Position numbers and translations under genes: made by a program
Part shown: positions 24,695-52,174 of the stretch, in pieces
How the letters are laid out: the number at the start of each line of letters is the position of its first letter
Numbering within the stretch: position 1 is the stretch's first letter
From: Dendrophyllia cribrosa
Lineage: Eukaryota > Cnidaria > Anthozoa > Scleractinia > Dendrophylliidae
Assembly: GCA_024195265.1 (NCBI GenBank)
Contig: JAJLRJ010000004.1
Span: 38,246,811 to 38,310,810 of the forward strand
DNA length: 64,000 bases
Direction: 5' to 3'
The notes under the pieces: generated by a model
Databases searched by the model: none
Told to the model about the DNA's origin: nothing
The model's input: only the letters and a program-made list of their open reading frames with translations

Positions 24695-24748
24695 CGAGAA
24701 TTTAGTTTTATCGACTGAGTCGATAAGGTAAATTGACCACCGTAAAAA

Positions 24749-24797: not shown

Positions 24798-24887
24798 AAG
24801 GAATTGTGGGTAGTGTGTGGTTTTATATAGTAAGCGGTGGAGCTACGCTATTGGTGGAAATTTGGTGACGTGAAAAACAAATGTAGA

Positions 24888-26240: not shown

Positions 26241-26290
26241 GGTATCAAAACCCAAGCTCAGAAACACTGCTCCGCTTAGCCGAATTAGTT

Positions 26291-27517
26291 TTGACACTTA
26301 ACTGTTTTTCATTTTCCCAAAACTACTACAAACAAGTAAATGGAGTCGCCATGGGCACCAAAATGGGACCAAGCTACGCTAACCTTTTTGTAGGCCACAT
26401 CAAAGACAAATTTTTTAATCAGTACCACGGAACCAAACCCGAACTCTACGGCCGTTACATCGATGATTGCATTGGCGCTACCTCTTCCAGTAAAGAGGAA
26501 CTTAATCAATTCATAACTTCTGTCAATACTTTTCATCCAGCTCTAAAATATACCTGGGAAATTTCCGAAACCTCAGTCGCTTTTCTTGACATTAATATTT
26601 CAATCAACGGTAACAGTTTATCCACAAGTGTGCACTACAAACCTACAGATTCCCACAGTTATCTGTTACATTCATCCTCACATCCATCGCACGTTAAAAA
26701 CGCCATTCCGTATTCTCAATTTCTCAGACTTCGACGTCTATGTAGTGATGACTCTGATTTTTCCAACAAATCAGAAGAAATGTGCCAGTTTTTCAAGAAA
26801 CGTGGGTACCCTGACTCTGTTGTTAATACGGGCCAACAACGTGCACAACAGATCGACAGACAGTCAGCACTACAAACGCCACAGAAGGAAGAGAACGAGA
26901 GAATTCCATTCACCCTCACTTTCCACCCACACAACAACACAGTCAAAAGCATCATTTTAAAAAATTTCAAATTACTCCAAAACGACCCCGAAACTGGCAG
27001 AATTTTTTCACAACCCCCACTAATTTCATTCAAACGTGACAAAAACATAGGCAACTTTCTAGTTACGAGCGCACTGAAATCTGACGATGTACCGGGAACT
27101 TTCAAATGCACACGCACACGATGTAACACTTGTCCTTTCATTCACAACGCGGACAAAATAACAGGACCCAAACGATCTATTAAAATCACTGATCGTTTTA
27201 CATGCACCTCCGTAAATGTTATCTACTGCATTACATGTACTTTTTGCAAAAAGATATACATTGGCGAAACAGGGAGGAGACTGGGCGACCGTTTTCGTGA
27301 ACATCTCCGAGACGTTGAAAAAAATGACAAAGACGCATCCAAACCAGTCGCGCGCCATTTTAATCTTACTAACCATTCTAAACAACACATGACAATCTGC
27401 GGCCTTTCCCTACACCAGGGTAACACAGAAAGCCGTAAAAACCTAGAACAAAAAATCATCTTTCAAATCGGCACTCTCAAACCCCACGGAATCAACGAAC
27501 GCTTTTCATTCAACTAA
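26291..27517 (+). pseudogene. Penelope-like RT/GIY-YIG protein, right copy (5'-truncated)
   Basis: This is a mirror copy of the left protein, starting within the helix before motif B (LNCFSFSQNYYKQ). It retains YIDD, the Cys-rich region and the complete GIY-YIG domain. Compared with the left copy I see only two amino-acid differences: Glu to Lys after FVGHI and Phe to Ile after KSI. It lacks motif A and the N-terminal half of the reverse transcriptase, so it cannot act by itself. The intact reading frame and near-identity indicate recent insertion or ongoing gene conversion between arms. Confidence 0.85.
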
Positions 27518-27607
27518 TCTACATTTGTTTTTCACGTCACCAAATTTCCACCAATAGCGTAGCTCCACCGCTTACTATATAAAACCACACACTACCCACA
27601 ATTCCTT

Positions 27608-27656
27608 GATTCGCTCCGACGAAGGGCTAGCGCTCGAAACGTCAGCTATTTGAATC
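27608..27656 (+). ncRNA. Hammerhead-like ribozyme motif of the right Penelope-like copy
   Basis: This is identical in sequence to the left motif but on the plus strand. It has the core CCGACGA, a stem II with TAGC loop, GAAAC, and the cleavage-site triplet GTC at 27641-27643. Stem I is formed by GCT/AGC and GATTC/GAATC. Confidence 0.55.
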
Positions 27657-27849
27657 TTTTTACGGTGGTCAATTTACCTTATCGACTCAGTCGATAAAAC
27701 TAAATTCTCGTGTTTCATCCCCCCACCGACGCAGCACCACAGTTTCTCTAGAAACTAACCCCATTCATGAGTTGAGATCAGTTTTTTTGCCCTGAATCTT
27801 TTAGCTAATGCATATTCTGGCAATTATCACATGTACACCTAAATTATAA

Positions 27850-28215
27850 AAACGGAAAACTGAAATTGTGCCATGTTCAGTGATATGAAACATGTAATAA
27901 ACTTGCTCCTAATATAAATATCACACAAGCAATAATTGAAAAAATATTGTGAGCTTATATTTATTGCAAATCGGTTAACTTATATTTCTAAGCATTCAAG
28001 GACAACAACACAAGTCAGACTTTACATCCTGTTCGAGTAGTAATTATCCTGATCACAGTTTTATTCACAGGGATTTTATTATCGTTTCTGTTGTTAATAA
28101 ACAGCTAAATAAATCGACCAAGCGGCGAAATCGAGTGAGTAACCAGCATCTCAAATCGATTTTCCTTAAGATTGCGTTAAGTTTTTCCGTGGAAATGTGG
28201 AAATTCAAGCCTAGT
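27850..28215. repeat. Tandem-duplicated intron segment, copy B (first part)
   Basis: This matches 24244-24605 with scattered substitutions and an 11-base replacement near 28160. The copy is interrupted after about 28215 and resumes near 30282. Confidence 0.85.
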
Positions 28216-35654: not shown

Positions 35655-35750
35655 TTGGCTTGTTTTAAAGAAACACCATTGGTTCAAACTCTAGAACCAA
35701 TAGAAAAGCAGGCGTGAAATTCTGATCGGCCTAATGGCATATATAAACTC
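35655..35750 (+). promoter_or_regulatory. Promoter-like region upstream of hammerhead copy 1
   Basis: CCAAT-type boxes in both orientations (ACCATTGG near 35677, ACCAATAG near 35696) precede a TATA-like CATATATAAACT at about 35738-35749. The hammerhead begins some 45 bases downstream. Confidence 0.4.
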
Positions 35751-35792: not shown

Positions 35793-35836
35793 GGCAACTG
35801 ACGAGATTCATAGAGAATCGAAACTGCAGTCTTGCC
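35793..35836 (+). ncRNA. Type I hammerhead ribozyme, copy 1
   Basis: All invariant core positions are present. Stem I is GGCAA (35793-35797) with TTGCC (35832-35836). Then come CTGACGA (35798-35804), stem II GATTC/GAATC with loop ATAGA, GAA (35820-35822), and stem III AC/GT closed by a TGCA tetraloop. The cleavage nucleotide is C at 35831, after GT. Stem III is only two base pairs, as in the small metazoan hammerheads found in retrozymes and Penelope-like elements. The predicted cut lies between 35831 and 35832. Confidence 0.85.
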
Positions 35837-36042
35837 TTAGAAATCCTTCTGCAATATGGCAGAAACCAGTGTCACTACAGACGGTTTTTTTAGAAACCAC
35901 ATCCATGGATCCTCTCCATGAGGATTCGCCTATGGAAACGGGAGATTTGAGCAAAGAAGAAGCAGCTCTCTTGTGCAGAAATCCCGGTGAAGACGTAGAG
36001 CCAGAGAACGAGATTTCATGCGCTCAGGTCAACCAGGAGTGA
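35837..36042 (+). pseudogene. Acidic open frame downstream of hammerhead copy 1
   Basis: The frame that runs through the ribozyme continues as MDPLHEDSPMETGDLSKEEA and an acidic, Glu-rich stretch to a stop at 36042. No domain is visible. It may be the start of the protein of the ribozyme-bearing element, or the N terminus of the piggyBac-type transposase whose core begins at about 36080, since piggyBac proteins have acidic leaders. A frame change would then lie near 36040. Confidence 0.3.
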
Positions 36043-36059
36043 GAGAAAAAGACCAACAA

Positions 36060-36928
36060 GCCAGTCACGCATGGTTCAAAGTTGTGGTGCATTGGTTGTT
36101 CTTACTGGGTTTTCAGCTCTATGCTGGTAAAGAGAAGGACATTGCAGAGCAAGGTTTGAGTTCTCGGGTGGTTTGCGATCTTTGCCACCCCACCCTTGAT
36201 AACTGTGGTCATATTATCTACATGGATAACTTCTTCACCAGCATTGCCCTCTGCTAGAAACCTACATTGGGGGAACTCTTCATTCAAATAAGCTGGGATA
36301 TCCTAAATGCCTAAAAGACAAATCATTACTCAAGAGGATGAAACGGGGAGACTACCACTCAGCAACATTCAAGAAAATAACTGTGACAGTGTGGAAGGAC
36401 ATCAAAGATGTATCCTTTTTGTCCAATTTCCATTCTTCCAGGGGGGGCAAGACAATGTTTCAAGAAAGAAACGGGATGGTTCAGTTGTTTAAATAAGTAC
36501 TCCACCCGTCTTGAAAGATTACAACAACAACAAGGGTGCAGTTGACAAGAATGATCATTCCATTGACCAGGAATCCAGGAGATGGTGGATGCGTATTTTC
36601 TTTCATCTTTTAGACATTTGCCGTGTAAATGCATTCATCGTGTCTAAGCAGTGCTGAGATAGAACAGTGGCCCACAGATGAGGATGTAGCCCCAGCGATG
36701 GATCAGAAGGCCTTCACTTCTAACCTTGCCAAATCCCTTTGCGGCAGTAACACCTTCCGCAAACAAAGAGGCCGCCCTTCAATGTCTTCCTCTACAATCT
36801 TACTTCGTTCCTCAGGCCATGAATCAGTCAATGTAGTCAAAAGTGGAAAGCTGAAGGGAGGTGTGCTGAGTGCTGCATGGGCGAGCACAGGAAAAAAGCC
36901 AGAGATGAAACAGTTTATGGCTGCGTAG
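36060..36928 (+). pseudogene. piggyBac-type transposase, C-terminal half, inactivated
   Basis: The region reads, with several frame changes, LGFQLYAGKE, LSSRVVCDLCHPTLDNCGHI, IYMDNFFTSIAL (the second catalytic Asp), GTLHSNKLGYPKCLKDKSLL, KRMKRGDYHSATFKKITVTV, WKDIKDVSFLSNFH, KDYNNNKGAVDKNDH (the third catalytic Asp region) and SRRWWMRIFFHLLDICRVNA. These are landmarks of the DDE_Tnp_1_7 core of piggyBac transposases, which excise precisely at TTAA sites. The last frame, 36629-36928, has KQRGRPS and a basic tail but not the usual Cys-rich finger. At least three frameshifts inactivate it. The first Asp block is missing. Confidence 0.75.
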
Positions 36929-36929
36929 A

Positions 36930-38445
36930 ATGCAGTGTTTGACTTGCCATGACCTTAATCACAGTAGGCTAACATTCCCAAATTAATGGTATTAGTAAGT
37001 AATTGAGACCCTTTTTGCAGCATATAAATGTTTTTCTTCAAAGGAAAATCATTTTATTGATTAAGTGGCATTTTTTATTCCTCTTTGTTACACATAAATT
37101 GGACATTTTTTACTCATTTTTACTGCTTTTTATCATTTAAAATCAATGAAACTTTTTACATATTGAGAGCAAGTTCTTTACAACATTGTGAACCATTTTA
37201 ACCAAAAACTGTAGGAAAATGTAGACAAAAGAGCACAAAATCTGCCTTTTTCCCATTGTTGGCGACCATTTTTAATATCTAATAGGAAAAGTTAATCATT
37301 AACTGGAATAAACAGTACATATTTGCAATCCTCAATCATTCAGCTTTTCAAAAATGCATGGTTATCTATATATCTATACGTAACAGTAACGAAACAGCTC
37401 ATATTTGCTGTTTTTTGAACATGGGTGCTTCTGGCATTATGACACTTTAAAATGTCATAATGAAATAGAGGCACAACACATCCACCTATTGGCTCTTGGC
37501 AAGATAGGTGAGTATTCAAGGAATGCTGAAGGACTTTTCAATTGAATTAAAACCAATTCAGCTCAGGTTACAGAACTGCAGTAGTGTGTGAAACGAATTT
37601 TAATCTGATTTCTCTTCTTCCAGCCAGTATTAATGTCACATCATGGACAGTAGGATATGTCATTCCCTACCATGTAATTTTTTTTTTTCAACGCAGCAGC
37701 AAAGGGTGACAGCAATGTTTTACGTGCAGTGGTATGACCACATTGTAACTTGGGAGTGAATCGGGAAACAACAAATCTAGCTAGGGACCAATGAACATCA
37801 TGCAATAAGGATGAAATAAGTGAATCATATCATGGTGGTCGGTTGCCATGACTTTTCCTCCTGCAACTCTGATGCTTTCTGGTGCAGAAATTTTCAGCCA
37901 CAGTTGGCGCCAATAGTGAAAACCTACTAAACAATGGTGGCAAGTTAAAATGGTAATGAGAGTGCGAAGAAAATAAATTTAAGGCCTTTCGGCATGAAAA
38001 ATGAGATGCGGAGGAACCTTTGATAGCATAATGGACAGATGTTTTTAAAGAAGCTCCAATCTATTCCTTCCAATAACTCTAAATAGTACACTATATAGTG
38101 GCTGTACAAGTCGTCTAGATGTTCCCCTAGTCATCCTTCAGATGACAAACAAGAAGACAAGTAAACAAAACTCCAGCAAAGAAATATCTCCTGCGCACAG
38201 AACTGCCATGTGCTGAAACAAATTCAAACATGGTGTCTCCATTACTAGCCAGAACAACAAGCTCTAAAACCGAACCGAATTTGAAAAATCCTGCGATTGT
38301 CTTCTCTTTATCATGGTTACTCCTCAAACCAACAATAGTATGGGGAGCAGCTCTTTTCCCTGTCCAGTCGTCCGTTGCTTCCCAAAGCATTCCTGCAGCC
38401 GCCATGATGGTGGTGGCTTTGTCATCGGCTGCTTCAGTCACTCAA
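36930..38445. other. No supported gene
   Basis: Mostly AT-rich sequence. A minus-strand frame at 38127-38441 has no recognisable domain and overlaps the start of the gag-like remnant. Confidence 0.4.
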
Positions 38446-38449
38446 TCTG

Positions 38450-39490
38450 GTGCGCAAATGGCCGGGCCAATTTCCTCTATTTTGCTCAAGCTGGTAGCCC
38501 TGGTCTCGCAGGTGGTGCAGGCTGTGCAAGTCATGTGGCCGCCGTTCCTTCAAGCGTTCAGGCCTCAATGAGCAGTCTGACGAGTTCGTTCTTGGCGTCG
38601 GTTGCTGGCTTCAAATCCGGGCTGTGTGTCAACATTTTCTACTGTGTTGCCGGTGCTTCTGTCTTCATCGGCACGCGGCATGAGCGGTTTCTCTCGCAGC
38701 ACCATGCGATGTCGCCCCAAGTTCAAGCGTCAGTTCAATTCCTTTAGTGGACCAACTGTTTGTCGTGGGCCCGGGCTTCTCGCCAGTTCTGGCCAAGCTA
38801 GTCAACCAAATCGTGGAAATATATTGATTTATCTGAGCTTTTGGCCGCTAACTTGGTTCTCTCAGAGAACGAACCGCAACTTCTGGATGGCCGTCTCGTT
38901 TAAACTTCACCCCTAGCAAACAACATCGACAAATCAAAGAAATCTCCAGTTGGATGGAAGCCTTTACGATATTCTCGCTCGTGCTTACATCGTACTTTCC
39001 CCATCAATGGAAGCATTTAACAGCGTATAAGCTTCTTATCCTTTGTGCCCATCTCCATTTTAGCGGTCAAGTCTGGCTGGCCTACAATCAGGTTTTTGCG
39101 AGCACGCGGCGGCCACGAGGCTAGTCAATTGGTCCTCAATGAATGTACTATTGTTCAATTTTCATGCGACTGTAGCTTCGGTTCGTGGTTCAAGCGGGGG
39201 ATCAGCGGAACCCGTGGGTGCCTATTATTCGCAGATTTCGTGAATATCTTGGAACAAGGGACGTTGCACAGCTCCTTACGTTTTGTGCCGCTATGCTCAT
39301 TGTTGCAACGTGTGCTCAGGGTCACATGCTATTTCGTGTTCAAACGGTTCGAAGAGGAAAGCTTATGGCGACGGCAAACGCAGAGCAAATTCCCCATCGG
39401 CCAGTTTCTCATCTAAGGTCCGATGCCAGTGATCAAGCATGTTTTGGAACTTTTTGCCTTTTAATGACTGGTGCCGCGTGGTTGCTTGTT
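38450..39490 (+). pseudogene. Gag-like protein of a retroelement, frameshifted
   Basis: Successive frames give a Ser/Ala/Val-rich N-terminal part (SSVQASMSSLTSSFLASV), then VDQLFVVGPGFSPVLAKLVN, KYIDLSELLAANLVLSENEP, a block with SKQHRQIKEISSWMEAFTIF, YFPHQWKHLTAYKLLIL and SGQVWLAYNQVF. This order, especially the 'YIDLSELL' block and the W-x-E-A-F...Y-K-L-L-I helices, matches gag-like proteins I recall from cnidarian retroelements, probably of the tyrosine-recombinase (DIRS-like) type. The assignment to that group is inference. No recombinase or reverse transcriptase follows. Unlike its surroundings, the region is comparatively GC-rich. Multiple frameshifts make it inactive. Confidence 0.45.
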
Positions 39491-39494
39491 TAAC

Positions 39495-40300
39495 CGTGCG
39501 GCTCGCAGTTAGTGACTCTTGATTTTTGATATCATGTATTTTTTCGAATAATAATTTATTGTCGCCCTTGTTCAGCTGAATGTTTAATTGGAACTTTTTT
39601 TTTTCCTTTTTAACTTGTGAATATGACTTATTGCAGTTACTGGAGAAAAGTCACTCTCTCATCGTAAACTTCATATTAAATTTATATTAAACTGTTGATG
39701 TTACACTTCGGTAATACATGTAGCATACATGGAGTAAATGGGAGTAAACCAAGTCCGCCATTACGACAGTTGTGTTTACGAATGCTCGACGAGCTCAAAC
39801 GTCGGTTTTGGAAAACGTTTGGGGTTCTTTTACTTGTTATTGTTTGGCACGGATATCTCACATTAATAATGAAGAAAAAGGTAAGTTTGTCCCGTAATTT
39901 TCATTTTCGCTAGTAAACACATTCCTTTATGTTTATTTACTAGCTACACACAAAGGTTTTAGAGGTCCTTCTTTGGTAAAAGATATTAGTACGTGGATCT
40001 GCAACACAAGGGAAGTAGTCATAACATGTACTAAGAGGACCCACCTTGTGTAGGGCAGGAAAAGGTCCGATGGTTGTTTCATATTCACGACTTGGCTTGC
40101 AAGGAGCCTTTGATTTGCACTAGCTTCGTGTGGTGCTTTGTTTAACTGTGTGGTCGCTGTCAGGCACTCTTAATTATTGATATCATGTATTTTTCGATTA
40201 TTAACTACATTGTTTGTTTAATGGAACTTTTTTCCTTTTGTGGACTAGCTCTGTGTGGTGCCATTGTTTAACCGTGGGGCTGGATGTTAGGGACTTTTGA
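39495..40300. other. No supported gene; partial internal duplication
   Basis: The strings 'ttttgatatcatgtattttt' near 39515 and 'attattgatatcatgtattt' near 40170, with similar flanks mentioning 'accgtgcggctcgcagtta' and 'ctgtgtggtcgctgtcaggc', indicate an old duplication of about 650 bases. Confidence 0.4.
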
Positions 40301-40307
40301 TTACAGA

Positions 40308-40941
40308 TACAGTTGAAGCTCTCTTAACTGACACTCTCATAAGCGGACAGCTCTACTTACAGCCGCCTTGTTTGAAACCCTGTTTTAACTCCCATACAAA
40401 CTCTATTTTGACATTCTCATAAGTGGACATTCCCGTAAGCGGCTGCGGACACTTTCAGAGATTACGACTTAGACTTTTTCTTTGTTTTTAAGCTCCCTTA
40501 AGCAGACACCCCAAAGAAAATCCTATTAACAACCTCTGTATCTTGTTTTTATCAATCAACTTCACATCGCCGTTCGTCACAATCATTTTACAGTAATTAC
40601 AGTACCATATTTCAGTGTTTGTTTTGTCGTCTGGTTACATTTCGAAACACAACTTACATGCATATGCCCTTGTGACTGGAATTACAACGTAATGATATCC
40701 TCGGGGCATCAGAGGAGACTGAAGCTAGTGACGAAGAGTCCATTGAAGAGTCTGAAGAATTAAAGACTCAGATGTCAGTTCAGTGAAAGGTGCGCTCAAG
40801 CTTTAAAAGAAGTTGTTGGATTTCTCTGACTGGCAGGGAAACGAAAAACTGTCGCAAGCCATCACACGCGTAAAAGATGCCTTGATGGACTTGCAACTTA
40901 AATCTTTGAAGCAGTCTTCCATCCACAGTTACCTATCATAA
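40308..40941 (+). pseudogene. pogo/Tigger-type transposon remnant with transposase C terminus
   Basis: The left end reads ACAGTTGAAGCTCTCTTAAC with several 'ataagcggaca' units, as in Tigger-type termini. At 40690-40941 a decayed frame gives DWQGNEKLSQAITRVKDALM, then DLQLKSLKQSSIHSYLS and a stop. Pogo-like transposases end with a helical acidic region and a short PCNA-binding box of the type Q-x-x-(I/L)-x-x-(F/Y)-(F/Y). QSSIHSYL matches it except for the last residue. The DNA-binding and DDE domains are missing, so the copy is a deletion derivative. Confidence 0.5.
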
Positions 40942-40944
40942 CAA

Positions 40945-41980
40945 ACCAGACTAATATAAACTGAAGCCTGACTGAAAGACACACAGGTCGTAAACATTTT
41001 AAACTGTATCACTACTTTTTGTTAAGGCTGTTAATGTTGAATATGTTGATGTTGGTTGCAATTATAATTTGTTTTTTTAAAAAATCATACCATGTATTTT
41101 GAATAATTATTGAAGTTGCGATACCAAGTGTTATTAATTATGAAATGCTCAATTAATTAATGAGATTAGTACTAATCATAGTTTAGTGGGAGAGGAATTG
41201 CTAGCCAGCGGTCTTCGCCCAGCGACTCAAGCTCATGTCAGCTGCCATAAAGTGATCACTTTCAGATACAGGGGAATAAAAATTGGATATATTTTTGTGT
41301 CTGATTGCAAGATGTTTTATGAAATAGCTGCGTTATGCATTACTGGAAAGGTTTCAAATTATTTTTACCTCAACTTTTCTCTCCTAAGTTATCACTTCTG
41401 TCGTTAACTTTGATTGAATTTATAAGTTTCATTCAAAATTTATTATAATAATGGTGGGAATACTTCCAGCAAAACTTTCAATTCAAAAAGTTGTTTTGAC
41501 CCCGGGTCCGGGCAGGCAAAATAAAAAGATTCATAGCTTTGAAAGGCCACTTTGCAGCTACATTTGCATTCACTTCAATAGTGTCTGAAATACAGCTAGT
41601 TACAAGGTTTAGCTAAAACCAATAACAACCATCAGGAAACTCTGATCTACAACCCTTTTTTCAACAGTAAGTACTGAAGTAGGCATCGATTTGTATTTTT
41701 CAGTACTCTTTTGACACGGTGGACACACTATTTTAATAATTTGCGTGCGGGCTTGCAGTCTTTTCACTTGTGTGAAATTATTTACCGTGGGATACCAATG
41801 TACTTATTCTGTACATCTAGTAAGATGACAAGAATTTTCTTTTAAAGTTTATAAAGGAACTTCATAAACAAAGCATTTTAAACAAAGCAAAAGCATAAAC
41901 CATACTATTGGTCTTTAGGTTCTGTTTCCCTATGCAAATGTACTGATTTGCATTGCAGCTTCAACAAGAATAAAGAGCTC
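40945..41980. other. No supported gene
   Basis: AT-rich sequence with one forward frame (41186-41407) that lacks any recognisable pattern. Confidence 0.4.
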
Positions 41981-41999
41981 ATATTATCTAATCCTGGTG

Positions 42000-43340
42000 C
42001 TTTTGCTGGAACAGACTTTGAAATCTCACAAGACTTTCCTTGAGAGAGTGAAAATATCAAAAGGCTTAGTGAAAGTTTTGAAAGAAGCAAAGAATGAGGG
42101 TCGCAATGATAAACTTGCCTATGACAGTCAAAGATACAAACACAGCTCATAAAAAAGAGAGCTTTACTGATATCAATAACAATCCTCTGATGAAAGGCTT
42201 GGCATCTATTCACAACACCTTCTTACATTAGTGGCAGATCACTGCTGCTCCCGTGCTGTTGCCCATTAGATGAAATGTGCCCTCCAATCTGTTTGGTAGC
42301 CCGCTGGATACCCAAACAGAGGTTCTGGAGTATTTAGAGCGAATTTCTCAGCAACAACAGTGTCACACATACCGCCAACTCACTTTAGAACGGCTTGATA
42401 CTATGATAGCAGTACTCAATGACCCTACAGAAACCCTTCCCATGCCAGTTCCAGCTCTTGCAGAAATCAACCCTGTACCATTTCAATCACTGCAGCCATT
42501 CACTCCACCTGCTGTTCATGAGCCTACAACAGTTGGGATCAAAGGAAAGTCCAGAGAAAAACTTTGCCCTGCAGCTGCTCCACCATTTCTTCCAGCCTTC
42601 AACCTCCCGGTCTTATCAGCTTTTTAAGTGTTTGACCCGATGTCTGTGCCTGAAAAGAATTCTGCAGGATACTATGACAGCAGTACTCAATGACCCCACA
42701 GAAACCCTTCCCATGCCAGTTCCAGCTCTGGCAGAAATCAACCCTGTACCATTTCAATCACTGCAGCCATTCACTCCACCTGCTGTTCATGAGCCTGCAA
42801 CAGTTGGGATCAAAGGTAAGTCCAGAGAGAAACTTTGCCCTGCAGCTGCTCCACCATTTCTTCCAGCCTTCAACCTCCCGGTCTTATCAGCTTTTAAGTG
42901 TTTGATCCGATGTCTGTGCCTGAAAAGAATTCTGCAGGATACTATGACAGCAGTACTCAATGACCCCACAGAAACCCTTCCCATGCCAGTTCCAGTTCTG
43001 GCAGAAATCAACCCTGTACCATTTCAATCACTGCAGCCATTCACTCCACCTGCTGTTCATGAGCCTGCAACAGTTGGGATCAAAGGTAAGTCCAGAGAGA
43101 AACTTTGCCCTGCAGCTGCTCCACCATTTCTTCCAGCCTTCAGAACAAGAGGGAAGCAATGTCAGGGGGGTTGGAGGCAAACTTTCAGTTAATTCTGACA
43201 AAATAAGTAAGATAAGAGACATTGTGTTTCAGTATTATCTGATCACTGTATCACAAGAACTTTTGTGGCGTGATTGTCACAAAGCCATCGACAGTTACAG
43301 TGTACTTGATAAACCAAACATCAGACACAGTATTTAGAAG
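42000..43340 (+). pseudogene. Unrecognised protein with internal tandem amplification
   Basis: A leading block near 42035-42150 reads LERVKISKGLVKVLKEAKNE, GRNDKLAYDSQRYKHSS, then a stop and frame change. From 42277 the frame reads LDTQTEVLEYLERISQQQQC, then a Pro-rich repeat unit (LNDPTETLPMPVPALAEINP...) present three times, and finally DKISKIRDIVFQYYLITVSQ with LLWRDCHKAIDSYSVL before a stop at 43335-43337. The block order suggests one protein whose middle was amplified. The second unit differs in length by one base (one extra T at the first unit's end), so the frame breaks at each junction. No family is recognised. Confidence 0.4.
42403..43142 (+). repeat. Three tandem units of 270-271 bp
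   Basis: The units start at about 42403, 42674 and 42944 (ATGAYAGCAGTACTCAATGA). The first two are 271 and 270 bases long; the third is cut short by unique sequence at about 43142. They differ at only a few positions. Units 2 and 3 carry AAAGGTAAGT, a consensus splice donor, where unit 1 has AAAGGAAAGT. Confidence 0.9.
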
Positions 43341-43344
43341 ATAA

Positions 43345-43840
43345 GTTTGTAATGATGGTTTCAATATTCTTTTATTTGGAAAAATTGCAACTGTTATTGT
43401 ATTAATTGCACAAAGTGGGTAGTTTTTGTATCATTACCATAATTGCAACTTGCAAATTGTACTTTGTGCTACTTTAACGTGATATTTTTTTCCTTTTTTG
43501 TTTTTTTTTTGTCTCTAACTCTTTCATATCAATCTGTGTTCATTTTTAAACAAGACAGCCTTAGTGATTTCAAGTTTTCCTTCGTTTTGCTTCAAGTTTG
43601 TGCATTCAAGTCTCCTTGTGTTAATTTGGTCTGCCATGTTGCAAAATGCAAACAAGAGCATGCAGTTGCTGACCTTTCAAATGGCTCATAAGTAGCCATC
43701 ATTCTCGCATTAAAATTTTCGGCCAAAAGTTCTGTCTCAGCCTGTCTTGTCTTTTACAGTCCAAAGTACATGTACTACTTCAAGTTCACCAGCAGCTACT
43801 GCTTTGGTTTTGTCTCCAGGTCATTGCATTTATTATGTAA
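43345..43840. other. No supported gene
   Basis: T-rich sequence, no coding evidence. Confidence 0.4.
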
Positions 43841-43849
43841 GTCGAGAAG

Positions 43850-44520
43850 ATGCCATTCACTTTTACCTTCTGTTTTCAGTCACTTAGAAAGTCTATCAAC
43901 CAGTTGATGGCAGTTGGCTTAACTCCCAGGCGATGCAATTTAGCAACTAATATGTGGTGATCCACCAACTTGAAAGCTTTGCAAAAGTCCAATAAAGGAG
44001 TTCTTACAGATGCTCCAGTGCCATCCGTAGCGCGCAACCAATGGTGAAACATAGAAATCAGCGCAAAAGGAGTCAATGAGCCTGGAATAAAACCAAATTG
44101 GATTGGAATATAACACCACAGGCTTCAGAGCCTGGTCAATCACAAAGCTCTCCTCAACTTTAGACAAGGTGGACGTGGGCAAGATAGGTCCAAGATCTTT
44201 GTTGAATCACATATTATGGTGCTTGGGTAAAGGGGGGACATTAGCAAGCTTCCACGAGCAAGGAACTTTGCATTCAGAGAACGAAGTGTTAAGAATGTCC
44301 GCAAAAGATGCGCTAAAATATCTGCGAACTCTTTTAATGCCCAGTTCGGGAGGTCATCTGGACCGCCGGCATGAGATGTGCTAATCTCTCACAGTTTGTT
44401 CGCTACAGACTGCTCAGTAACAAATATTGGTTGATCACCGTCAGTTGACACGCACTCAGAGCCGGTCAGGGGGGAGTAGATTGAGTCATTGAAAGACAAA
44501 CTCGTGAGAGCTAAACTCTT
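43850..44520 (-). pseudogene. CR1-like LINE reverse transcriptase fragment
   Basis: Minus-strand frames give, in order, AGGPDDLPNWALKEFADI, CKVPCSWKLANVPPLPKH, KDLGPILPTSTLSKVEESF, IPGSLTPFALISMFHHWLRA, TDGTGASVRTPLLDFCKAFK, LVDHHILVAKLHRLGVKPTA and INWLIDFLSD. This covers RT motifs from the N-terminal 'GPD' block to motif A (LLDF-x-K-A-F) of a non-LTR retrotransposon. The YxDD block would lie further left and is absent. Frameshifts occur near 44180 and 44080. The PIF/Harbinger element is inserted just upstream of this fragment. Confidence 0.75.
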
Positions 44521-44566
44521 AAGGTCAAGTACACAACAGAGTCGCGACAGCCTGTCATCACTTTAA

Positions 44567-44790
44567 AGCCTGGTTCCCACTAGTGAAATAAGCATAAGCG
44601 TAAGCGCAAGCATAAGCATAAGATAACGCTAGTGGGAACCGGCGTGAAATAAGCATAAGCGTAAGCACAAGAAAAAGGAACATTTTCCTTTTTCTTACGA
44701 CTGCGCTTATGCTTAATTCGCTTGTGTTGTGCTTATTTCACAAGTGGGAACCGGCGTGAAATAAGCATAAGCATAAGCACAAGAAATCAA
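44567..44790. repeat. Harbinger left terminus with repeated subterminal motifs
   Basis: The outer TIR GGTTCCCACTAGTGAAATAA is followed by further copies of GTGGGAACCGGCGTGAAATA at about 44631 and 44745 and by inverted copies near 44710-44745. All are built from 'ataagcataagcgtaagc' units. They are probably transposase or MADF-protein binding arrays. Confidence 0.8.
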
Positions 44791-44853
44791 CCAATCAGAA
44801 TGACAAAGTTCCAGATCTCCTTGGCCTCACGGTCGAGGCTCACGGTCAACAAA

Positions 44854-45001
44854 ATGGCGGCAAGCGATCTCGATGAGAAGTTGGCTGAGCTAGTTCGAAG
44901 CTATCCAGCACTATACGATAAATCTCTACCCGACTTTAAGAATGCCCATAAAAAGGAGCTGGCATGGGCCGAGATAGCGAGACAAATGCGTTTGAAAACA
45001 G
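44854..45001 (+). CDS. Harbinger MADF/Myb-like DNA-binding protein, exon 1
   Basis: The ATG at 44854 is in good context (AACAAAATGGCG) just inside the left terminus. The exon encodes MAASDLDEKLAELVRSYPAL, YDKSLPDFKNAHKKELAWAE and IARQMRLKT: the first helices of a MADF (Myb/SANT-like) domain with its conserved aromatic residues (Y-P-x-L-Y-D and the W before the second helix). It ends at 45001 before GTAGGC. In Harbinger elements this second protein binds the subterminal DNA and carries the transposase into the nucleus; both are needed for transposition. Joined with exon 2 it gives a 340-residue protein in frame. Confidence 0.8.
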
Positions 45002-45629
45002 GTAGGCAAAGGCACAAAGTTAACTGAGTTTGTGGGCTCAACGAATGATTCGACAAATCAGTGCATGTAGATTGTTCTTTGCTTGTATCATATATGGATT
45101 TAAAGCGTTGTAATATTCTTTCTTGCTGTGGTAACACCTTTTATTCATAAACTTTATCAGGCAATTGTAATTTACCACTGAATGTCATTGTCTACAGTCA
45201 CAATTTCATATGTGCACTATGATTTATTGACTAGCTATTTATTGACTTTATTCGGCACTTTATTCAGCTTTATTGCATTGTAGTTAACTGGAATAGTTAT
45301 CCATATAGCACTTTCAGTCCCTCCAGCTCATAGTCCAGCAGCAACAACAATGTAAAATAATTATTTATCCTATGTTATTACATCAAGTGAAGGATGGTGT
45401 GAGCACAAAAATGAAGAGAGGTGTATTTTTATTGTGAAAGAGCTGTATGCTTTCATCTGGTTTCTTGCTGCTAGAGTAATTTTACTTGGCATGTGAAATA
45501 TTTATCACACTATTAGTCGGTACTAGATATTGTTTCATGGGCCAGGTAAAATCACTCCACTGAAAAAAAAAATTGTAGTAAGGGGCTATATTATATAACA
45601 AATATTAAAGAGTTGTTCTGTGATTATAG

Positions 45630-46504
45630 GCAAAGAGGCAAAGGAACTATTCAAAAATCTAAGAAACCGCTATAACCGAGATAAGAAAAGGATTAAAAGT
45701 CAGAAGGTTAGCGGAAAAGGAAGTCAAGATGTCCAGCAAGCTGAACAGCAGAGTTCAGAACTTTTTAAATATCTGAGGTGGCTTGATCCATACATCAGAC
45801 CACGCAAGAGCAAATCTAATTTATATCCAAGTTCTGGATTAGCTCATGAAGAGAGTAATGACGAATCAGATGAGTTGGATGATCTAGACTCAGAATCCCA
45901 GTCTTCTGATAACCTCAGAAGCTCAACTCCATCAAGTGAGATAAGCAACATGGATGCCGATAGAGGTGGTACGACTTCTGGCACTCAGAACAAGGAAATA
46001 TGTGGCAATGTGAAATCTGATGTAACAGGGCAACAAAAGTACAGGAAAAGGAAAAGTGCGGTGGATAAGACTGTTGATAAAGTTGAGCTTGAACTTATGC
46101 AATCAATAAGTTCTAAACTTACCAGCAGGCCAGAAGAAAGAAAACAAAAAGATGAAGATGATTTGTTTTGTGAGCTGCTTGCCACCCAGTTACGTCAGTT
46201 CAACCCCAGAGATAAGTTGCTAATCAAGATGCGTATCAATAACACTGTATATAATCAGCTAATGAAGCCATCAATGAGCACACCTTTATATTATGAGCAA
46301 GCTGCAGGAGCTCCCCCAGTTCAAAGTCAATTTAATGTTCCAAGTGTAGGGGGAGTTGATACTAGCCCAGTTAGTAGGCAATTTCATGTTCCAAGGTCAG
46401 AGGAAATTGAGTCAACGCCAATTAACAGGCCATTTCACATTACAAATCCCGAGGAAATTGAGTCAAGGCCACAATTTCCCCCTGGATTCTTTTTTCGTAG
46501 TTAA
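45630..46504 (+). CDS. Harbinger MADF/Myb-like DNA-binding protein, exon 2
   Basis: The exon begins after the acceptor GATTATAG (AG at 45628-45629) and continues the domain with GKEAKELFKNLRNRYNRDKK, the third MADF helix. A W-L-D-P-Y-I motif, an acidic Ser-rich linker (about residues 115-150), a basic patch (KYRKRKSAVDK) and a C-terminal helix with DDLFCELLATQLRQFNPRDK and LLIKMRIN follow. This is the BESS-like self-association region typical of MADF proteins. Three imperfect repeats containing 'QFxVP...E(E/G)(I/V)(E/D)S' precede the stop at 46502-46504. The transcript faces the transposase gene. The intron of 628 bp carries no coding sequence. Confidence 0.8.
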
Positions 46505-46908
46505 ACAGACTAATAGCTAGTCATTTGTTTGAGATTTGGTCGAAAAGACATTGACATTTTGTTTGTTGGTAAAAATTCTGTTCACTTCTGTGTACCAAGT
46601 GTTTGAAGAGAAACACTAGTTTTACCAAGTGTTGAAATTATTACCAGTTTGTTTTCATGTATATGAGATACAGCCATGTATTAAAGTTTACACTTGCTAG
46701 CATAAAGTTGAAATGAATAAAAGACAAAAATGTTGTTGTTGCAGGGGAAGTTTATTTATGTATTGTTTATTTGCCTAAACCTAAGTAGAAATGACACTAA
46801 TTAATCCTCAGGGGAGACAGGAGTTTCTTTCAAATGGAACATTGATAAGCAGTAGTTAATACACCAAGAACTGCAGTCTTGTACTGCCCAAAACACAACA
46901 TGTGTATT

Positions 46909-47058
46909 TGTTGCAGGTTAAATTGAGCCTTAGGTTAAAATGATCTTAACCTAGGTTGGTTTTGAACTGTCTTTGTTTGGTACTTATGATTATTATGATA
47001 ATGAGTGAAAAACAAAAGGAGTTTCATTTTAACCTAAGGCTCAATTTGACCTGCAACA
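46909..47058. repeat. 150-bp palindromic MITE-like insert between the two Harbinger genes
   Basis: Arms of 34 bases at 46909-46942 and 47025-47058 (TTGCAGGTTAAATTGAGCC...) match with one mismatch around an 82-base core that has its own short CTTAACCTAGGTT palindrome. Confidence 0.8.
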
Positions 47059-47357
47059 TATTCACTCTCACTTAACTCTTTTTGCATATCCTTTTTATAT
47101 TTTCATACCACCCAGTAGTGTTAGATGATTACTTGGGTCCATTTACCAGTTTGAAATGCATATACATACAATTTAAAACTCAAAATGCAGTTGAACAAGT
47201 ACATGAACATGATTTAGTGTTTTAATAAGTTTTTCTATTCAATTCATTTAAAACTTTATTGAAACTACATTTTATAGCTTAATCAACACTTAATTAATTA
47301 TTAATTATTATTAATTATTATGTCTTTCTTTGCCCAATAGTGGAAACTGCATGCACT

Positions 47358-48462
47358 TCAACGCCTTGGGCCCTTGCACCTGACATAGTCCCATTGCCAG
47401 GGTACAGCACCCTCTTGTGAATTAACATATTGTTTCAAATTTTCTCTGACACTAACTGCAGACTGCTGGTACCGTGATCCTCTAGGACGACACAAAGGCC
47501 TCAATGCACCATTACACTCATCCTCCACAATTCTTCTCCATTCACCAGGGCGTATTTGTCCTGTGCTGTCCTCACTGTCCACAAATCCAACAGGGCAGTA
47601 CAATGCATTGTTTGTTTGTCTGAGATAATTGTGGAGGCACACAGTAGCCTGTGTTATGGATTGAGCAGTTTCAACACTTCCTTGGATAGGCCGGTGAAAT
47701 ATACGCCATCTCGCTGCAAGAATGCCAAATGCATTTTCAATCACCCTTCTTGCTCGAGAGAGCCGGTAATTGAAAATTCTTTGGTCTTCAGGTAACTCCC
47801 TTCCAGAAAATGGTCTTTGCATCCATTGCTTTAAAGCAAATGCTTCATCACCTATTAAGAAGTATGGCAAAGGATTATCTCTCCAACCTTCAAGTGGTTC
47901 AGCACTGGGAAGATTCAGTTGCTCAGCTTCCAAAGCGTGCCCCATAGTTGAATGTGATAGAACACCACTGTCATTATTGCTACCATAATTCCCAATATCC
48001 ACTAAAGTAAATGAATAGCGAGCATCGCACACTGCAAGCAGATTTATACTGAAAAAGCCTTTATAATTATAGTACAATGAGCCACTGTTCAGTGGACATT
48101 GTATTGCCACATGTTTTCCATCGATAGCTCCAACACAGTGTGGGAAATTCCACAACCTTTGAAATTCACCTGCAATGTCTTTCCATTGTTCACTTGAGTT
48201 AGGAGGTCTCAAGTACTCCTCATGCAAAACAGCCCAAATAGCGTCGCATGTTTCTCGAATGATCTTTGAAACTGTTGCCCTCCCTATTCTGTAGGCAAAA
48301 GAGTTAGACTGTTGGCTATCACCATATGCTAAGTAGTGTAGAGTTAAACTTAACCGTTCTGCTGGTCCAATTGCCTGCCTCATTTTGGTGTCTTTCTTGG
48401 TAATTAACAGAGCCACTAAAGACAATAGATGTTCAAACCTGTCAGGTGACATCCTCATATAC
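47358..48462 (-). CDS. HARBI1-like: Harbinger transposase (HARBI1 type), exon 2
   Basis: The exon starts after the acceptor GTACCTAG on the minus strand (exon base 48462) and encodes the catalytic body. A helix-turn-helix-like region has ERLSLTLHYLAYGDS and YRIGRATVSKIIRETCDAIW. The DDE nuclease core has VGAIDGKHVAIQCP (first Asp), YFLIGDEAFALKQWMQRPFS (second Asp) and SRARRVIENAFGILAARWRI (Glu). The C-terminal helices read ATVCLHNYLR and MSPDRF-type leader sequence. These are the signatures of DDE_Tnp_4. The frame is open to TGA 47358-47360. Together with exon 1 it gives 438 residues, a normal length for the family. Confidence 0.9.
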
Positions 48463-48522
48463 CTAGGTACAAAAGTTGGGATAGACAATTGTAACTTAAA
48501 TCAAACACAGAATGGATAAGGT

Positions 48523-48542
48523 GGGGGGGGGGGGGGGGGGAT
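48523..48542. repeat. Poly-G/C tract in the transposase intron
   Basis: A run of about 18 consecutive G bases on the plus strand, C on the transcribed RNA. Confidence 0.85.
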
Positions 48543-48703
48543 TCGGGGGTCAGAAATTCCCTCCTACCCAGATATAGCATTGGGAACAATTGTCTCCCAT
48601 TTGAACGACTACGGGGTTGATAAATAAAAACCTGTTCTGTTGCCGAAATTTACTTACAAGTGTGTTAACTTAAAATCTCATCTGAGCTTGACTTACCATA
48701 TTT

Positions 48704-48795
48704 ATTCGATTAAACTCCGCGGCATTTATTAAATTTTTCGTGCTTCGAGTGCAGCGTTTATTCGAGGGCGGCGTTTAATCGAATAAATACGGTAT
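48704..48795. repeat. Short inverted-repeat MITE in the intron
   Basis: Arms TATTTATTCGATTAAACTCC and the reverse complement at 48765-48793 (GGCGTTTAATCGAATAAATA) enclose an unpaired core of about 40 bases. Confidence 0.75.
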
Positions 48796-48954
48796 GTGGG
48801 GCAATTGTCGAGACAATTTGCTAGAGTCAGTATCTTCCTTTGTCACAACCAAACGATTTATTTTTTCCTTCCATTGCGAAGTTAAGAAACTTCATTTTAA
48901 GCTATGTAAAACAAAATCCATTTGTTCCACAAATAAGAAAAGATAAAAGCTAAC

Positions 48955-49166
48955 CTGAAGTACAACTCTCTGTCGCCAAGACGGAGCTCTTGAACGAGAT
49001 TATGATAGTCTCCTTGCAGTATTCTTCTTGAATATATATCCCGTACCCATACACTCCTTCCGTGTCTTCGATTTTGGACTCTTCGACGTCTCCTCCGTCG
49101 GAGTAGCACCCACGTTAACACGATCATAACAAACAGCAACCCTTCCTCCGCTGCCATTTCCGCCAT
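48955..49166 (-). CDS. HARBI1-like: Harbinger transposase (HARBI1 type), exon 1
   Basis: I take the ATG at 49166 (AAGATGGCGGAAATGG), since the longer frame above it lacks an ATG in this reading. It encodes MAEMAAEEGLLFVMIVLTWV, a run of Arg residues (RRRRRRRVQNRR, possibly a nuclear-localisation signal), then YSRRILQGDYHNLVQELRLG and DRELYF. This last block is the conserved lead-in to the family's 'YFRMSxxxFExLL' motif, completed by exon 2 as FRYMRMSPDRFEHLL. The donor is at 48953-48954. Promoter sequence must lie in the right terminal repeat. Confidence 0.8.
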
Positions 49167-49202
49167 CTTGTTTCCTACCGAGACTTTCACTGCGCATGCG
49201 TA

Positions 49203-49297
49203 CGTCGCCAGTGTTATGCTTATTTCACAAGTGGGAACATTCTTGTGCTTATGCTTGCGCTTACACTTATGCTTATTTCACTAGTGGGAACCAGGCT
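49203..49297. repeat. Harbinger right terminus with two motif copies
   Basis: Two inverted copies of the terminal unit, TTATTTCACAAGTGGGAACA near 49221-49240 and TTATTTCACTAGTGGGAACC at 49274-49293, are separated by 'tgcttatgcttgcgcttac' units. Confidence 0.85.
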
Positions 49298-49639
49298 TAA
49301 ACCATCACCGTTTATGACAGAGCTCTATCCTGCATCGTGCTTTTAAAATCAACTATCAGGCTGCAAGTTTAAAACAGTGCCTTCAAAAAGGCATGGAATA
49401 GCAAGCAACATATACGCAATTCCACTACACTGTCTCTTTACGAGATGCTACAGCTGTAGACGTTATAGCTCCAAAAAGCAGCCAAATGACCTTCAAAAGA
49501 AACAACCAATTCGATCTGGAAAGAGGACCTGCATGAAAACCAGCTGCGGCTGATGTGGCTTTCCTCTCTAAATATAGTTATTTATTTATTTATTATTATT
49601 TATTAACCATTTCAGGATTAAAAAAAACATTTGGCCCAA

Positions 49640-49695
49640 TAAGAAGCCAGGATTTTGGATCCTCAAAAGAGGATACAACAAGTATAAAACCGTCA
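49640..49695 (+). promoter_or_regulatory. Promoter-like region upstream of hammerhead copy 2
   Basis: A CCCAATAAG box (about 49635) is followed by AGTATAAAACC at 49680-49690, a TATA-like element about 70 bases before the ribozyme. Confidence 0.4.
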
Positions 49696-49760
49696 AACTT
49701 CTAACAAACTACGGAATGCTATCAGTTTTTACTGCCATTCCACTGAGACCTTTAACAAAG

Positions 49761-49807
49761 AAACAACTGACGAGATTCACTATAGAATCGAAACTGCAGT
49801 CTTGTTT
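49761..49807 (+). ncRNA. Type I hammerhead ribozyme, copy 2
   Basis: Stem I is AAACAA (49761-49766) with TTGTTT (49802-49807), CTGACGA lies at 49767-49773, stem II is GATTC/GAATC with loop ACTATA, GAA is at 49790-49792, and stem III is AC/GT with a TGCA loop. The cleavage C is at 49801. The core is identical to copy 1, but stem I has changed on both sides while keeping pairing. The cut is predicted between 49801 and 49802. Confidence 0.85.
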
Positions 49808-49812
49808 AAGAA

Positions 49813-50150
49813 TGGAAAACTTAACATTTTCAAAAGACGGCATGCTAATACCTGGCCCATCCACATCAGGCCAAAAAGAGCTTGAAAAAGAAAACAAGCT
49901 GTTAGAATCCGCTGACGACGAGCTGCAGAGCGGCCAACATTCACCGATCAGAAAACCCCATCAGTACGGCCAACGCTCACCCATCAGAAAACGCCGCCAC
50001 GAGCCGAGAGAACAATATAGGCCCAGCAAATGGTCACGGTTCGACTACAGCGCCACTGCCTTGGATACTAAAATCATAAAATCAGAACAGTCAATCGAAA
50101 TGATGAAAGCACTTTTTTACAAGTGTTGTGTATATTTAAAATTAGATTAG
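49813..50150 (+). CDS. Short open frame directly after hammerhead copy 2
   Basis: The first ATG after the predicted cleavage site opens a 112-codon frame: MENLTFSKDGMLIPGPSTSG, a charged helix (KELEKENKLLESADDELQSG), Ser/Pro/Arg repeats (SPIRKPHQYGQRSPIRKRRH), then SRFDYSATALDTKIIKSEQS and a short C terminus. A polyadenylation-like AATAAA lies near 50183. The basic, Ser/Pro-rich middle and the 'ATALDxKxxKxxQSIExM' block resemble N-terminal regions of ORF1/gag-like proteins of cnidarian retroelements (from memory), truncated here. No catalytic domain follows on this strand. Confidence 0.4.
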
Positions 50151-50391
50151 GACAGGTGAATACCGGTATTTTATAACACTAAATAAAGCACTCTGTCTTG
50201 TAAAAAAATGGAGTAAAACTGGAAAGAAAACACAGCATTTGTTTCCTAGAGGGCCTGGGCCCAAGTGAATACACATTGTGTGTACTACAGAGAGTACCAA
50301 GCCACTCAATTTGTAATCTCGAAGTGTTCATGGCAAAATCATCGCTTGCGTTCAATTCTATAGAGTTTTTCTGTTGTTTAGCTTTTAAAAA

Positions 50392-52174
50392 ATGTCTCAG
50401 AAGTTCCGTTCTCAGAAAAGAAAGAGGAAGTTTGCTGCAAACCAGTTTACTGCCCAAGGTCACTCTTTAACTAACAAATCACTTGGTGAAACAAGTCGAA
50501 ACAAAGATGGTGGCAAGCAATTGTCAAAGGAAACTGCCTCTGATGAGAAGATTGCAAGTGGAAAGAAATGGCTGTCTGATCTTAAGGAAGATGAATCGGA
50601 AGAAGAAATTAATGGTCTTGAAGATTGTTCAGGACGCCAAATTTTTGATGCTGAAAGCCTTGCTTCAGCGATTGAGCAAGCTGCAGTTTGCAAAAACTGC
50701 AAAGAAGGCTCTCAGCATCTTCGTGAGGATGGAAGAATGGGTTTGGCCTCCCAGATGACCTTCAGGTGTGTTGAATGTGGTGAAGAAACCTCTTTTAACT
50801 CTGACTGCAAGACAGGACGGGTTTTCCCAGTAAATAGGAGTGCTGTTTTTGCTTCCAAGTTAATTGGACGGGGTTATGCAGCCTTGTCAGGTGTGCAATA
50901 CTTTGGACATCCCTGGGCCCATGGCCAAAAGAACTTATGAGAAACATTCAAAGCACATCAGGGATGCAGCTGTTATGAAGGCCAAGGAGAGCATGAGAGC
51001 AGCTGTCCAGGAGATCAGAGAAATTAACAATTGTGGAGAGGATGAGCTGGCTGACATTGCCATTACAATTGATGGCACTTGGATGAAACGGGGGCATAGT
51101 TCCCTTTATGGAGCTGTGTTTGCCCTTTCTTGGCAAACTGGCAAAGTCATTGACTACTGGGAGAATCAAGATGAGAGACCCTTGCAGGATTACCTATGTT
51201 GGAGAGCATCTCATGTCTGCAACATAACCCATGAAGGATCTGCAAATTCAATGGAAATGCGAGGAACGGTCGACATTTATTCTCGATCCATAAAGCAGAA
51301 CAAGCTGAGATATGTCACCATGACTTCAGATGGTGATTGCAAAAACCATGCAAGTGTAGTAGAACTGAAACCTTATGGTGAGACTGCTATTGTGAAGGAA
51401 GACTATGTGGGTCGCGTGCAGAAGAGGATGGGGCGAAGGCTTTTTGATCTCAAGAATGTGTACAAGGGGAGAAAGCTTGAAGATGGAAAGACTCTTGGAG
51501 GGAGAGACTGTTTCACTGAGGCTAAAATTAAACTGTTTCAAAAATACTATGACAAGGCCATACAAAGCCATAAGAATGACAAAGATGGAATGAACAGAAA
51601 TCTGGGCCATACTGTACCACTCTGCCTCCTCAGATGAAAACCCTCAGCACGACAACTGCCCGGAAGGTGAAACTTCATGGTGTGGCTGGCAGCAGGACCA
51701 AGCAAAGGGAATTGACAGTGACCAACACAAGTCACCCTTGCCCCCAGCTGTAGAGGAAGTGATCAAGCCAATTTTTAAAGCATTATATGCAGATGACTTG
51801 CTGGATTGCTGCCTTGAAGGGGCAATCAGAACCAAAACGAGTCCCTGAACACTGTTGTTTGGGGCCTATGCTCAAAAGATTCATTTGCTGGCCTGAATTC
51901 TGTGGAGACAGCATGTGCCATGGCTGTAGCACGCTTTAATGATGGTGCACATACCACTGCAAACATAACCAGAAGGCGTGACCTCAATCCGGGACAGTAT
52001 GTCTCTGAAGCTGCCGACAAAGAAGACAGCAAATGCATTTACCATGCAAGGAAAAAGTCAAGAGTGGGTGCCTTGGAGGCAAGACAGCAAAGGAGGAGTA
52101 ACAGACCTTTTTATTATTCACTGAAAAAAATTATTGCTACCCTTAATATGCTTTATATACTAAAGATGGCCTGA
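50392..52174 (+). pseudogene. Mutator-like transposase (PF20700 type), nearly full length, frameshifted
   Basis: The N-terminal frame (ATG 50392) has a basic start, a zinc-knuckle (CKNC...CVECGEETSFNSDC) and VNRSAVFASKLIGRGYAA. A shift near 50890 leads to LDIPGPMAKRTYEKHSKHIR, then the DDE core with IAITIDGTWMKRGHSSLYGA (first Asp), VTMTSDGDCKNHASV (second Asp) and VGRVQKRMGRRLFDLK. A shift near 51610 leads to AILYHSASSDENPQHDNCPE and TSWCGWQQDQAKG. A further shift near 51835 leads to QNQNESLNTVVWGLCSKDSF, ACAMAVARFNDG and a basic tail. Order and length match the Mutator-like transposase domain family found in animals. Three frameshifts in about 590 codons and no obvious large deletion mean the copy died fairly recently. 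Confidence 0.8.

Follow-up and report, generated by a model that had tools for sequence, protein, structure and literature searches.

Two minimal hammerhead ribozyme motifs in a Dendrophyllia cribrosa contig and their probable origin in Penelope-like retroelements

Two short motifs, HHR1 and HHR2, were analysed in a 64,000-nucleotide (nt) stretch of the Dendrophyllia cribrosa genome (assembly GCA_024195265.1, contig JAJLRJ010000004.1, positions 38,246,811 to 38,310,810 of the forward strand; hereafter the window). Each has the make-up of a minimal type I hammerhead ribozyme, follows a putative promoter box and precedes the start of an open reading frame (ORF) that very probably derives from a Penelope-like retroelement (PLE), in which the ribozyme would belong to the pseudo-long terminal repeat (pLTR):

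35740 to 35747, forward strand: TATATAAA, 58 nt upstream of the HHR1 core; putative pLTR promoter box by consensus match only
35793 to 35836, forward strand: HHR1, minimal type I hammerhead ribozyme; stem I GGCAA/TTGCC, stem II GATTC/GAATC, stem III palindrome ACTGCAGT
35855 to 35917, forward strand: broken start of a Penelope-like ORF after HHR1 (MAETSVTTDGFF...); start codon (ATG) 24 nt past the HHR1 cut base
49683 to 49689, forward strand: TATAAAA, 84 nt upstream of the HHR2 core; putative pLTR promoter box by consensus match only, with CCAAT at 49636
49761 to 49807, forward strand: HHR2, minimal type I hammerhead ribozyme; stem I AAACAA/TTGTTT, stem II GATTC/GAATC, stem III palindrome ACTGCAGT
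49812 to 50147, forward strand: open frame, N-terminal part of a PLE protein (MENLTFSKDGML...); its ATG lies 11 nt after the HHR2 cut base

Both motifs contain the invariant hammerhead core (i.e. CUGANGA, GAA, an A-U pair closing stem III and an NUH cut site), with predicted cleavage after C35831 (HHR1) and C49801 (HHR2). The initial annotation, made from the letters alone, had listed CTGACGA, a GATTC/GAATC stem II, GAA, the A-U closing pair and the cut-site C at these positions, and all are present. Stem I has 5 bp in HHR1, where a sixth pair would be T-T, and 6 bp in HHR2; loop II differs in length as described (5 and 6 nt). Apart from these two, a descriptor scan covering both strands detects no complete minimal type I hammerhead in the window, compared with a chance expectation of 0.01 motifs per 64 kb (200 first-order Markov sequences). 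A model built from HHR1 and HHR2 gives no third good match in the window (next E-values 0.13, without the core, and 0.59).

Rfam reports no hammerhead in the window at the gathering score. The type I model (RF00163) is nevertheless the best local Rfam match at both motifs (HHR1, 22.2 bits, E 0.0035; HHR2, 31.0 bits, E 4.1e-6; each on 251 nt), below its gathering cut-off of 34 bits. Scanned as a whole at E<=10, the window yields a single hammerhead entry, HHR1 under the HH9 model (18.8 bits, E 7.4), and no entry for HHR2. The lack of a covariance-model hit, which had been proposed as grounds for rejecting the motifs, thus holds strictly at the curated cut-off, but sub-threshold type I matches lead at both sites. 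We do not take that cut-off as defining the class, and minimal variants can be expected to fall short of the RF00163 threshold. On sequence grounds, the assignment of HHR1 and HHR2 to the type I hammerheads is confirmed.

The two motifs share a stretch of about 49 nt (35795-35842 versus 49764-49812, 90% identical), and their flanks (60 and 300 nt) are not clearly alike; the best case, 300 nt downstream, is matched by 19 of 300 shuffles. The 47 aligned columns contain seven differences, every one of them located in loop II or the outer part of stem I (P 1.3e-5, with column classes picked after the fact). In stem I, two pairs are altered on both sides (G-C versus A-U) and the three inner pairs are identical. 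The both-strand change is real, but the claim that two loci give strong evidence of selection for the fold was overstated, because 110 of 500 shuffles equal this covariation; it is justified only with the genome copies. The commoner stem I is AGCAA/TTGCT. HHR1 departs from it at pair 5 (G-C replacing A-U) and HHR2 at pair 4 (A-U replacing G-C), which implies two separate changes.

We then searched the window's own assembly (627,238,274 bases, 22 contigs). The exact core matches 37 places (19 forward and 18 reverse, both window copies included), and the reversed-pattern control matches none. All 37 copies were inspected, namely 35 fetched loci (L015-L049) plus HHR1 and HHR2, and their common stem I is AGCAA/TTGCT. 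The five inner stem I positions are all paired in 36 of the 37, including L016 with one U-G; L043, which breaks pair 1, speaks against the fold. Genome copies with unmaintained stem I pairing, the other ground for rejection proposed in the initial annotation, are hence confined to this exception. A looser pattern without a stem II demand matches 48 places, where stem II has five of five pairs in 43, four in 4 and two in one, the last probably a chance match. Alternative fully paired versions of stem II are GGAAC/GTTCC, GAATC/GATTC and GGTTC/GAACC. Both counts are free of any pairing demand for the stem counted.

Among 15 distinct variants, two-sided changes occur in 8 of the 15 pairs and in all three helices, which none of 500 shuffles reaches; with slid partners as a control, only 0-2 pairs show such changes. 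Four of five covariation measures exceed all shuffles, and the fifth (further pair types) is unexceptional, being equalled by 102 of 500 shuffles, which again counts against the fold. The core is constant except at positions 7 and 17, where the hammerhead rule permits variation. Five of the 15 rows (L047b, L050, L051a, L051b and L052) came from or passed a structure scan that favours paired rows, since it demands at least four pairs in stems I and II and two in stem III. From the 15 distinct motifs of that scan, L025 was excluded as another type and the broken L043 was added. The L025 motif (L025:5372-5429, reverse strand) is hammerhead-like, with a 10-bp stem II, stem III ACAG-TT-CTGT, a cut at A and stem I GTTTAA/TTAAAC. 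The genome copies settle that the three predicted helices are supported by covariation, consistent with a paired shape preserved by evolution.

No clear target-site duplications were seen in the 16 copies examined for them, and the tight motif has no match in prokaryote and viral collections. Viral-contig matches of the loose pattern (L001-L006) were rejected as hammerheads because they show no stem I by eye.

What do these ribozymes belong to? A tblastn search with the window's PLE protein (E<=1e-3) places a Penelope-type reverse transcriptase (RT) beside the motif in five of the 35 fetched loci (L030, L032, L034, L035 and L039) and a GIY-YIG domain beside it in L048, a family A copy. In L032, a single frame runs without a stop from the hammerhead across the N-terminal domain and reaches the RT (621 aa within the examined piece), and another RT copy lies upstream of the hammerhead. 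A genome search with the L039 RT gives at least 131 matches, from which L050, L051 and L052 were chosen only for a long open RT frame (860, 841 and 877 aa). A hammerhead precedes the RT frame in all three. Pfam RVT_1 E-values are 7e-5 (L030), 3e-4 (L039), 5e-6 (L051) and 8e-9 (L052), of which only the last passes the Pfam cut-off; L050 (62% identity to L051 across 853 positions) receives no RVT_1 match. A solved-structure search with the RT gave no match. Twenty-three RT matches, 91-95% identical to the L039 RT, lie within 0.28 Mb and form a large amplified array (C1:23910222-24188898); 20 of them fall in a 279-aa open frame, 15 without stops.

The full-length relatives L050 and L051 share one order: pLTR start, about 0.42 kb, hammerhead, ATG, one ORF, stop and the next pLTR start. 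Their pLTR motif lies 416 nt before the hammerhead and recurs 45 nt (L050) and 38 nt (L051) after the RT frame, giving units of about 3.1 and 3.0 kb in which pLTR repeats with the ribozyme inside flank the ORF. Allowing up to 9 errors, no such motif was found in L052. Downstream of its RT, L051 bears an additional hammerhead whose stem II is altered but paired (GGTTC/GAACC), and the stem I of HHR2 is also present in this locus. In the relatives, the first in-frame ATG lies 11-39 nt after the cut base, and the ORF encodes an N-terminal domain with a TCPxxLRYN-like motif followed by the RT. A TATAWA box occurs 25-90 nt before the core in 25 of the 37 copies versus 6.8% of background positions. 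CCAAT or ATTGG is found near HHR1 at 35654, 35678 and 35697; the combined CCAAT and TATA test (background 0.5-0.6%) was chosen after viewing the HHR1 and HHR2 loci. A TATA box has been described in a Penelope pLTR (PMC3846280; here and below, statements on published work refer to the accessible parts of each source).

HHR2 is tied to these elements through protein. It ends 4 nt before the truncated N-terminal frame, the remainder of the element being missing, and across 100 aa this frame has 40% identity (E 5e-14) with the ORF of L051, which carries the RT in an element of about 3 kb. The match to L030 is weaker (29% over 41 aa, E 9e-4). Three relatives of the frame (P0001-P0003) were found in public assemblies, and none was confirmed in viral contigs. 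HHR1 is 80-83% identical to family B copies (L028, L035 and L039) over about 77 nt (about -7 to +70 of the core), and the similarity extends past the start codon; L035 and L039 have an RT downstream. A likeness of the HHR1 frame to P0003 (score 37) was dropped, 253 of 2000 shuffles being as good.

From these results, HHR1 and HHR2 are very likely hammerheads of the 5' pLTRs of two PLE families, of which the window holds only 5' fragments. Several results weigh against this reading: (i) neither motif is joined to an RT within the window, and an RT in the same element was found for the relatives only; (ii) family B is linked to HHR1 solely by the 77-nt similarity, and the protein similarity between the frame downstream of HHR1 and the HHR2 family is not significant (253 of 2000 shuffles as good); (iii) 29 of the 35 fetched loci, most of them short derivatives, have no RT or endonuclease in the tblastn search at E<=1e-3; and (iv) Rfam at E<=1 reports no hammerhead in L032, L039, L050 or L051, and in L052 only HH9 (27.3 bits, cut-off 52). 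The earlier suggestion that the hammerheads are under selection at least in their parent elements is supported, the parents now being recognized as PLEs. Because both window copies are fragments of a known kind of element, the result for the window itself is modest.

The copy structure also bears on whether the motifs could be animal retrozymes, i.e. short non-autonomous repeats (170-400 nt) that bear canonical hammerheads and propagate as RNA circles. Animal retrozymes carry type I hammerheads (PMC7229834), and non-autonomous spread does occur here, as the family A copies are derivatives of some 1.2 kb that have internal deletions and no long frame. However, the hammerhead of L050 and L051 is part of a roughly 3-kb unit that includes an RT ORF, no tandem array of non-coding 170-400 nt repeats is seen around HHR1 or HHR2, and the structure scan yields 42 motifs over the window and 38 loci with at most two in any one. 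We consider retrozymes very unlikely and, lacking a short tandem array, reject them.

Family A (L016, L017, L019, L027, L031, L038, L041, L042, L043, L044, L047 and L048) comprises short, internally deleted derivatives whose 5' ends vary and whose 3' end is fixed inside a partial pLTR (...CAACCCCATTTATAACC), 812-817 nt downstream of the core start. The family A copies L026, L036, L037, L045 and L049 change just past the stem I strand into one common unrelated sequence (TTGCTTTACCCTTGCT...), perhaps a captured or recombined element.

Each window motif is also followed by a transposase relic on the same strand, lying outside the ribozyme element:

35991 to 36654, forward strand: piggyBac-type transposase relic (DDE_Tnp_1_7 pieces), following HHR1
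50389 to 51637, forward strand: Mutator-like transposase pieces (PF20700), following HHR2

This arrangement would fit hammerheads that serve as 5' leader elements of the neighbouring DNA transposons, but the frame after HHR2 is PLE-like, the genome copies of the motif precede PLE ORFs, and no TTAA-flanked inverted-repeat pair (14 nt, at most 4 mismatches) was found between 33.5-36.06 and 36.9-40 kb. With no such pair in the range tested and a PLE frame after HHR2, this explanation is rejected as extremely improbable. A host-gene 5' untranslated region was likewise rejected, given the multi-copy motif and its PLE homology.

We also considered how the PLE ribozymes might fold and act. Stem III is an exact 8-nt palindrome in 14 of the 15 distinct variants and is kept through sequence change. 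Its full pairing is possible only between two ribozymes: the inner two pairs cannot close in one molecule because the loop would have none or one nt. The inner palindrome varies as TGCA, TCGA, TATA and CG-C-CG, and pairing is retained in 15 of 15 variants, among them the five rows of the scan that favours paired rows. Since these pairs covary though unable to close in cis, we infer selection for dimers, and the palindromic stem III points to dimeric cleavage. In cofolding, HHR1 is predicted to form two hammerheads on a common 8-bp stem III (-27.1 kcal/mol versus 2 x -11.4 kcal/mol for the monomers). Other predictions are less favourable: the HHR2 dimer is nearly alike but loses one stem I, both monomers would misfold (hammerhead fold 6.3 kcal/mol above the minimum in each), and monomer stability is unremarkable, with 13 and 15 of 200 shuffles as stable. 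Because folding in cis alone is predicted to be poor, a monomer cleavage assay might fail even for a real ribozyme.

Transcripts of tandem or pLTR-flanked copies would carry two hammerheads whose palindromic stem III halves could pair together. Such a dimer would cleave after position 17 and might release RNA units that begin a short distance upstream of the start codon, the presumed target being a transcript of adjacent copies. Dimers have been proposed for such motifs (PMC3088659, PMC7761336). In the PLE PAc, tested in vitro, hammerhead mutants left insertion unaffected and cleavage needed the protein (PMC11167929), which cautions against assuming a role of the hammerhead in insertion.

The palindrome and the covariation might instead reflect DNA-level or inherited subfamily differences, the copies being dead passengers and the pattern unrelated to ribozyme activity. 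Most copies are fragments, both window copies are truncated, and the covariation cells count sequences, not independent events. Yet compensatory changes occur in all three helices while the core varies only at its two permissive positions, and the open frames beside the variant ribozymes of L050, L051 and L052 suggest recent function of those elements. We regard passenger status as unlikely and retain the reading of PLE ribozymes.

Hammerheads in PLE pLTRs are already known; the unusual feature here is that the host ORFs end directly after the RT. They terminate in ...AKL or AKI followed by a stop in L034, L039, L050, L051, L052 and the upstream L032 copy, and the L035 ORF stops two residues later. 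In L050, L051 and L052, the frames can be aligned with the window PLE no further than residue 279 of its 425, where they end; Pfam finds no GIY-YIG in them, so that the C-terminal endonuclease of canonical PLEs is lacking. A tblastn search with the window endonuclease (E<=1) also finds none in L030, L032, L034, L035, L039, L050, L051 or L052, as far as readable.

For 50 RT matches the distance to the nearest contig end was measured, and it never falls below 1 Mb, where about 2 (4.3%) would be expected to do so; contig ends may not be telomeres. The 50 matches, of 131, are high-scoring ones on contigs of known length, with the array at C1:23.9-24.2 Mb omitted; among the 81 outside this set, C1:123708 is 0.12 Mb from a contig end. 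The distance from contig ends is only mildly informative. We tentatively raise the possibility, which we hold to be more doubtful than probable, that an endonuclease-less PLE lineage spread through chromosome interiors with a hammerhead selected to work only as a dimer, as a copy-counting processing switch. If so, the palindromic stem III would let the RNA cut itself only where two copies meet, as in tandem transcripts, and the endonuclease could come in trans from endonuclease-bearing PLEs of the same genome. In this genome, such ribozymes are linked with open RT frames that lack the customary endonuclease, and natural variants with covarying dimer-only pairs make the dimer model testable by sequence and simple RNA assays.

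The window itself holds an endonuclease-bearing PLE with GIY-YIG in two head-to-head copies (24693-26160, reverse strand, and 26245-27712, forward strand; 99.9% identical over 1468 bp), around which a 0.37-kb flank is repeated (24237-24598 and 27842-28213). It carries a different hammerhead-like motif, with no hammerhead score in Rfam at E<=10 for the forward copy:

24760 to 24789, reverse strand: second copy of this motif, in the element's inverted repeat
27616 to 27645, forward strand: hammerhead-like motif of the endonuclease-bearing PLE (CCGACGAAGGGCTAGCGCTCGAAACGTCAG), not of the HHR1/HHR2 family

Elsewhere in the window, a transposon at 44563-49301, which we take to be PIF/Harbinger-like, is bounded by inverted ends of 61 bp (95%) and contains frames for MADF and BESS plus, on the opposite strand, one for DDE_Tnp_4; HHR2 lies 460 nt outside it. 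A 251-nt stretch occurs three times at 42351-43142 (spacing 270-271 nt, 84-99% identical). A histone 3' stem-loop scores 34.6 bits against a cut-off of 34, and roughly 100 nt upstream of it lies another that is weaker, at 15.6 bits (sites 23210-23254 and 23307-23349, forward strand); no histone frame is seen by eye just before the stem-loop, and a weak Mutator-like frame (21277-22614) precedes it.

Minimal type I hammerheads of PLEs were reportedly described by Cervera and de la Pena in 2014 and by Lunse et al. in 2017. Among the papers listed in a literature search by title and abstract, with subscription papers mostly outside its scope, none dealt with dispersed endonuclease-less elements with hammerheads. 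Published PLE hammerheads resemble ours in being minimal type I and pLTR-borne; they have a very short or missing stem III and may self-cleave as dimers (PMC7761336, PMC6155905), whereas here stem III is an 8-nt palindrome in nearly all variants and three open host ORFs lack a C-terminal endonuclease. Athena and Terminons (PMC3846280, PMC6431247) share the RT without GIY-YIG, and Terminons also carry hammerheads. Such endonuclease-deficient PLEs are described as mostly restricted to chromosome ends (PMC3846280), a placement not seen among the 50 measured matches here, though C1:123708 is nearer to an end. The repeat-type hammerheads of Aedes and others (PMC3088659) similarly have a palindromic stem III/loop III that permits a dimer, and the present copies differ in that a host element with an RT frame and a covarying palindrome are seen. 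The Poseidon element PAc of Anolis (PMC11167929) has a hammerhead at the pLTR-ORF junction, tandem copies and a pLTR-ORF-pLTR arrangement. Its ORF, however, includes GIY-YIG and has its start codon within the hammerhead, 26 bp ahead of the cut, whereas in the D. cribrosa elements the first ATG follows the cut base and the ORFs checked yielded no GIY-YIG.

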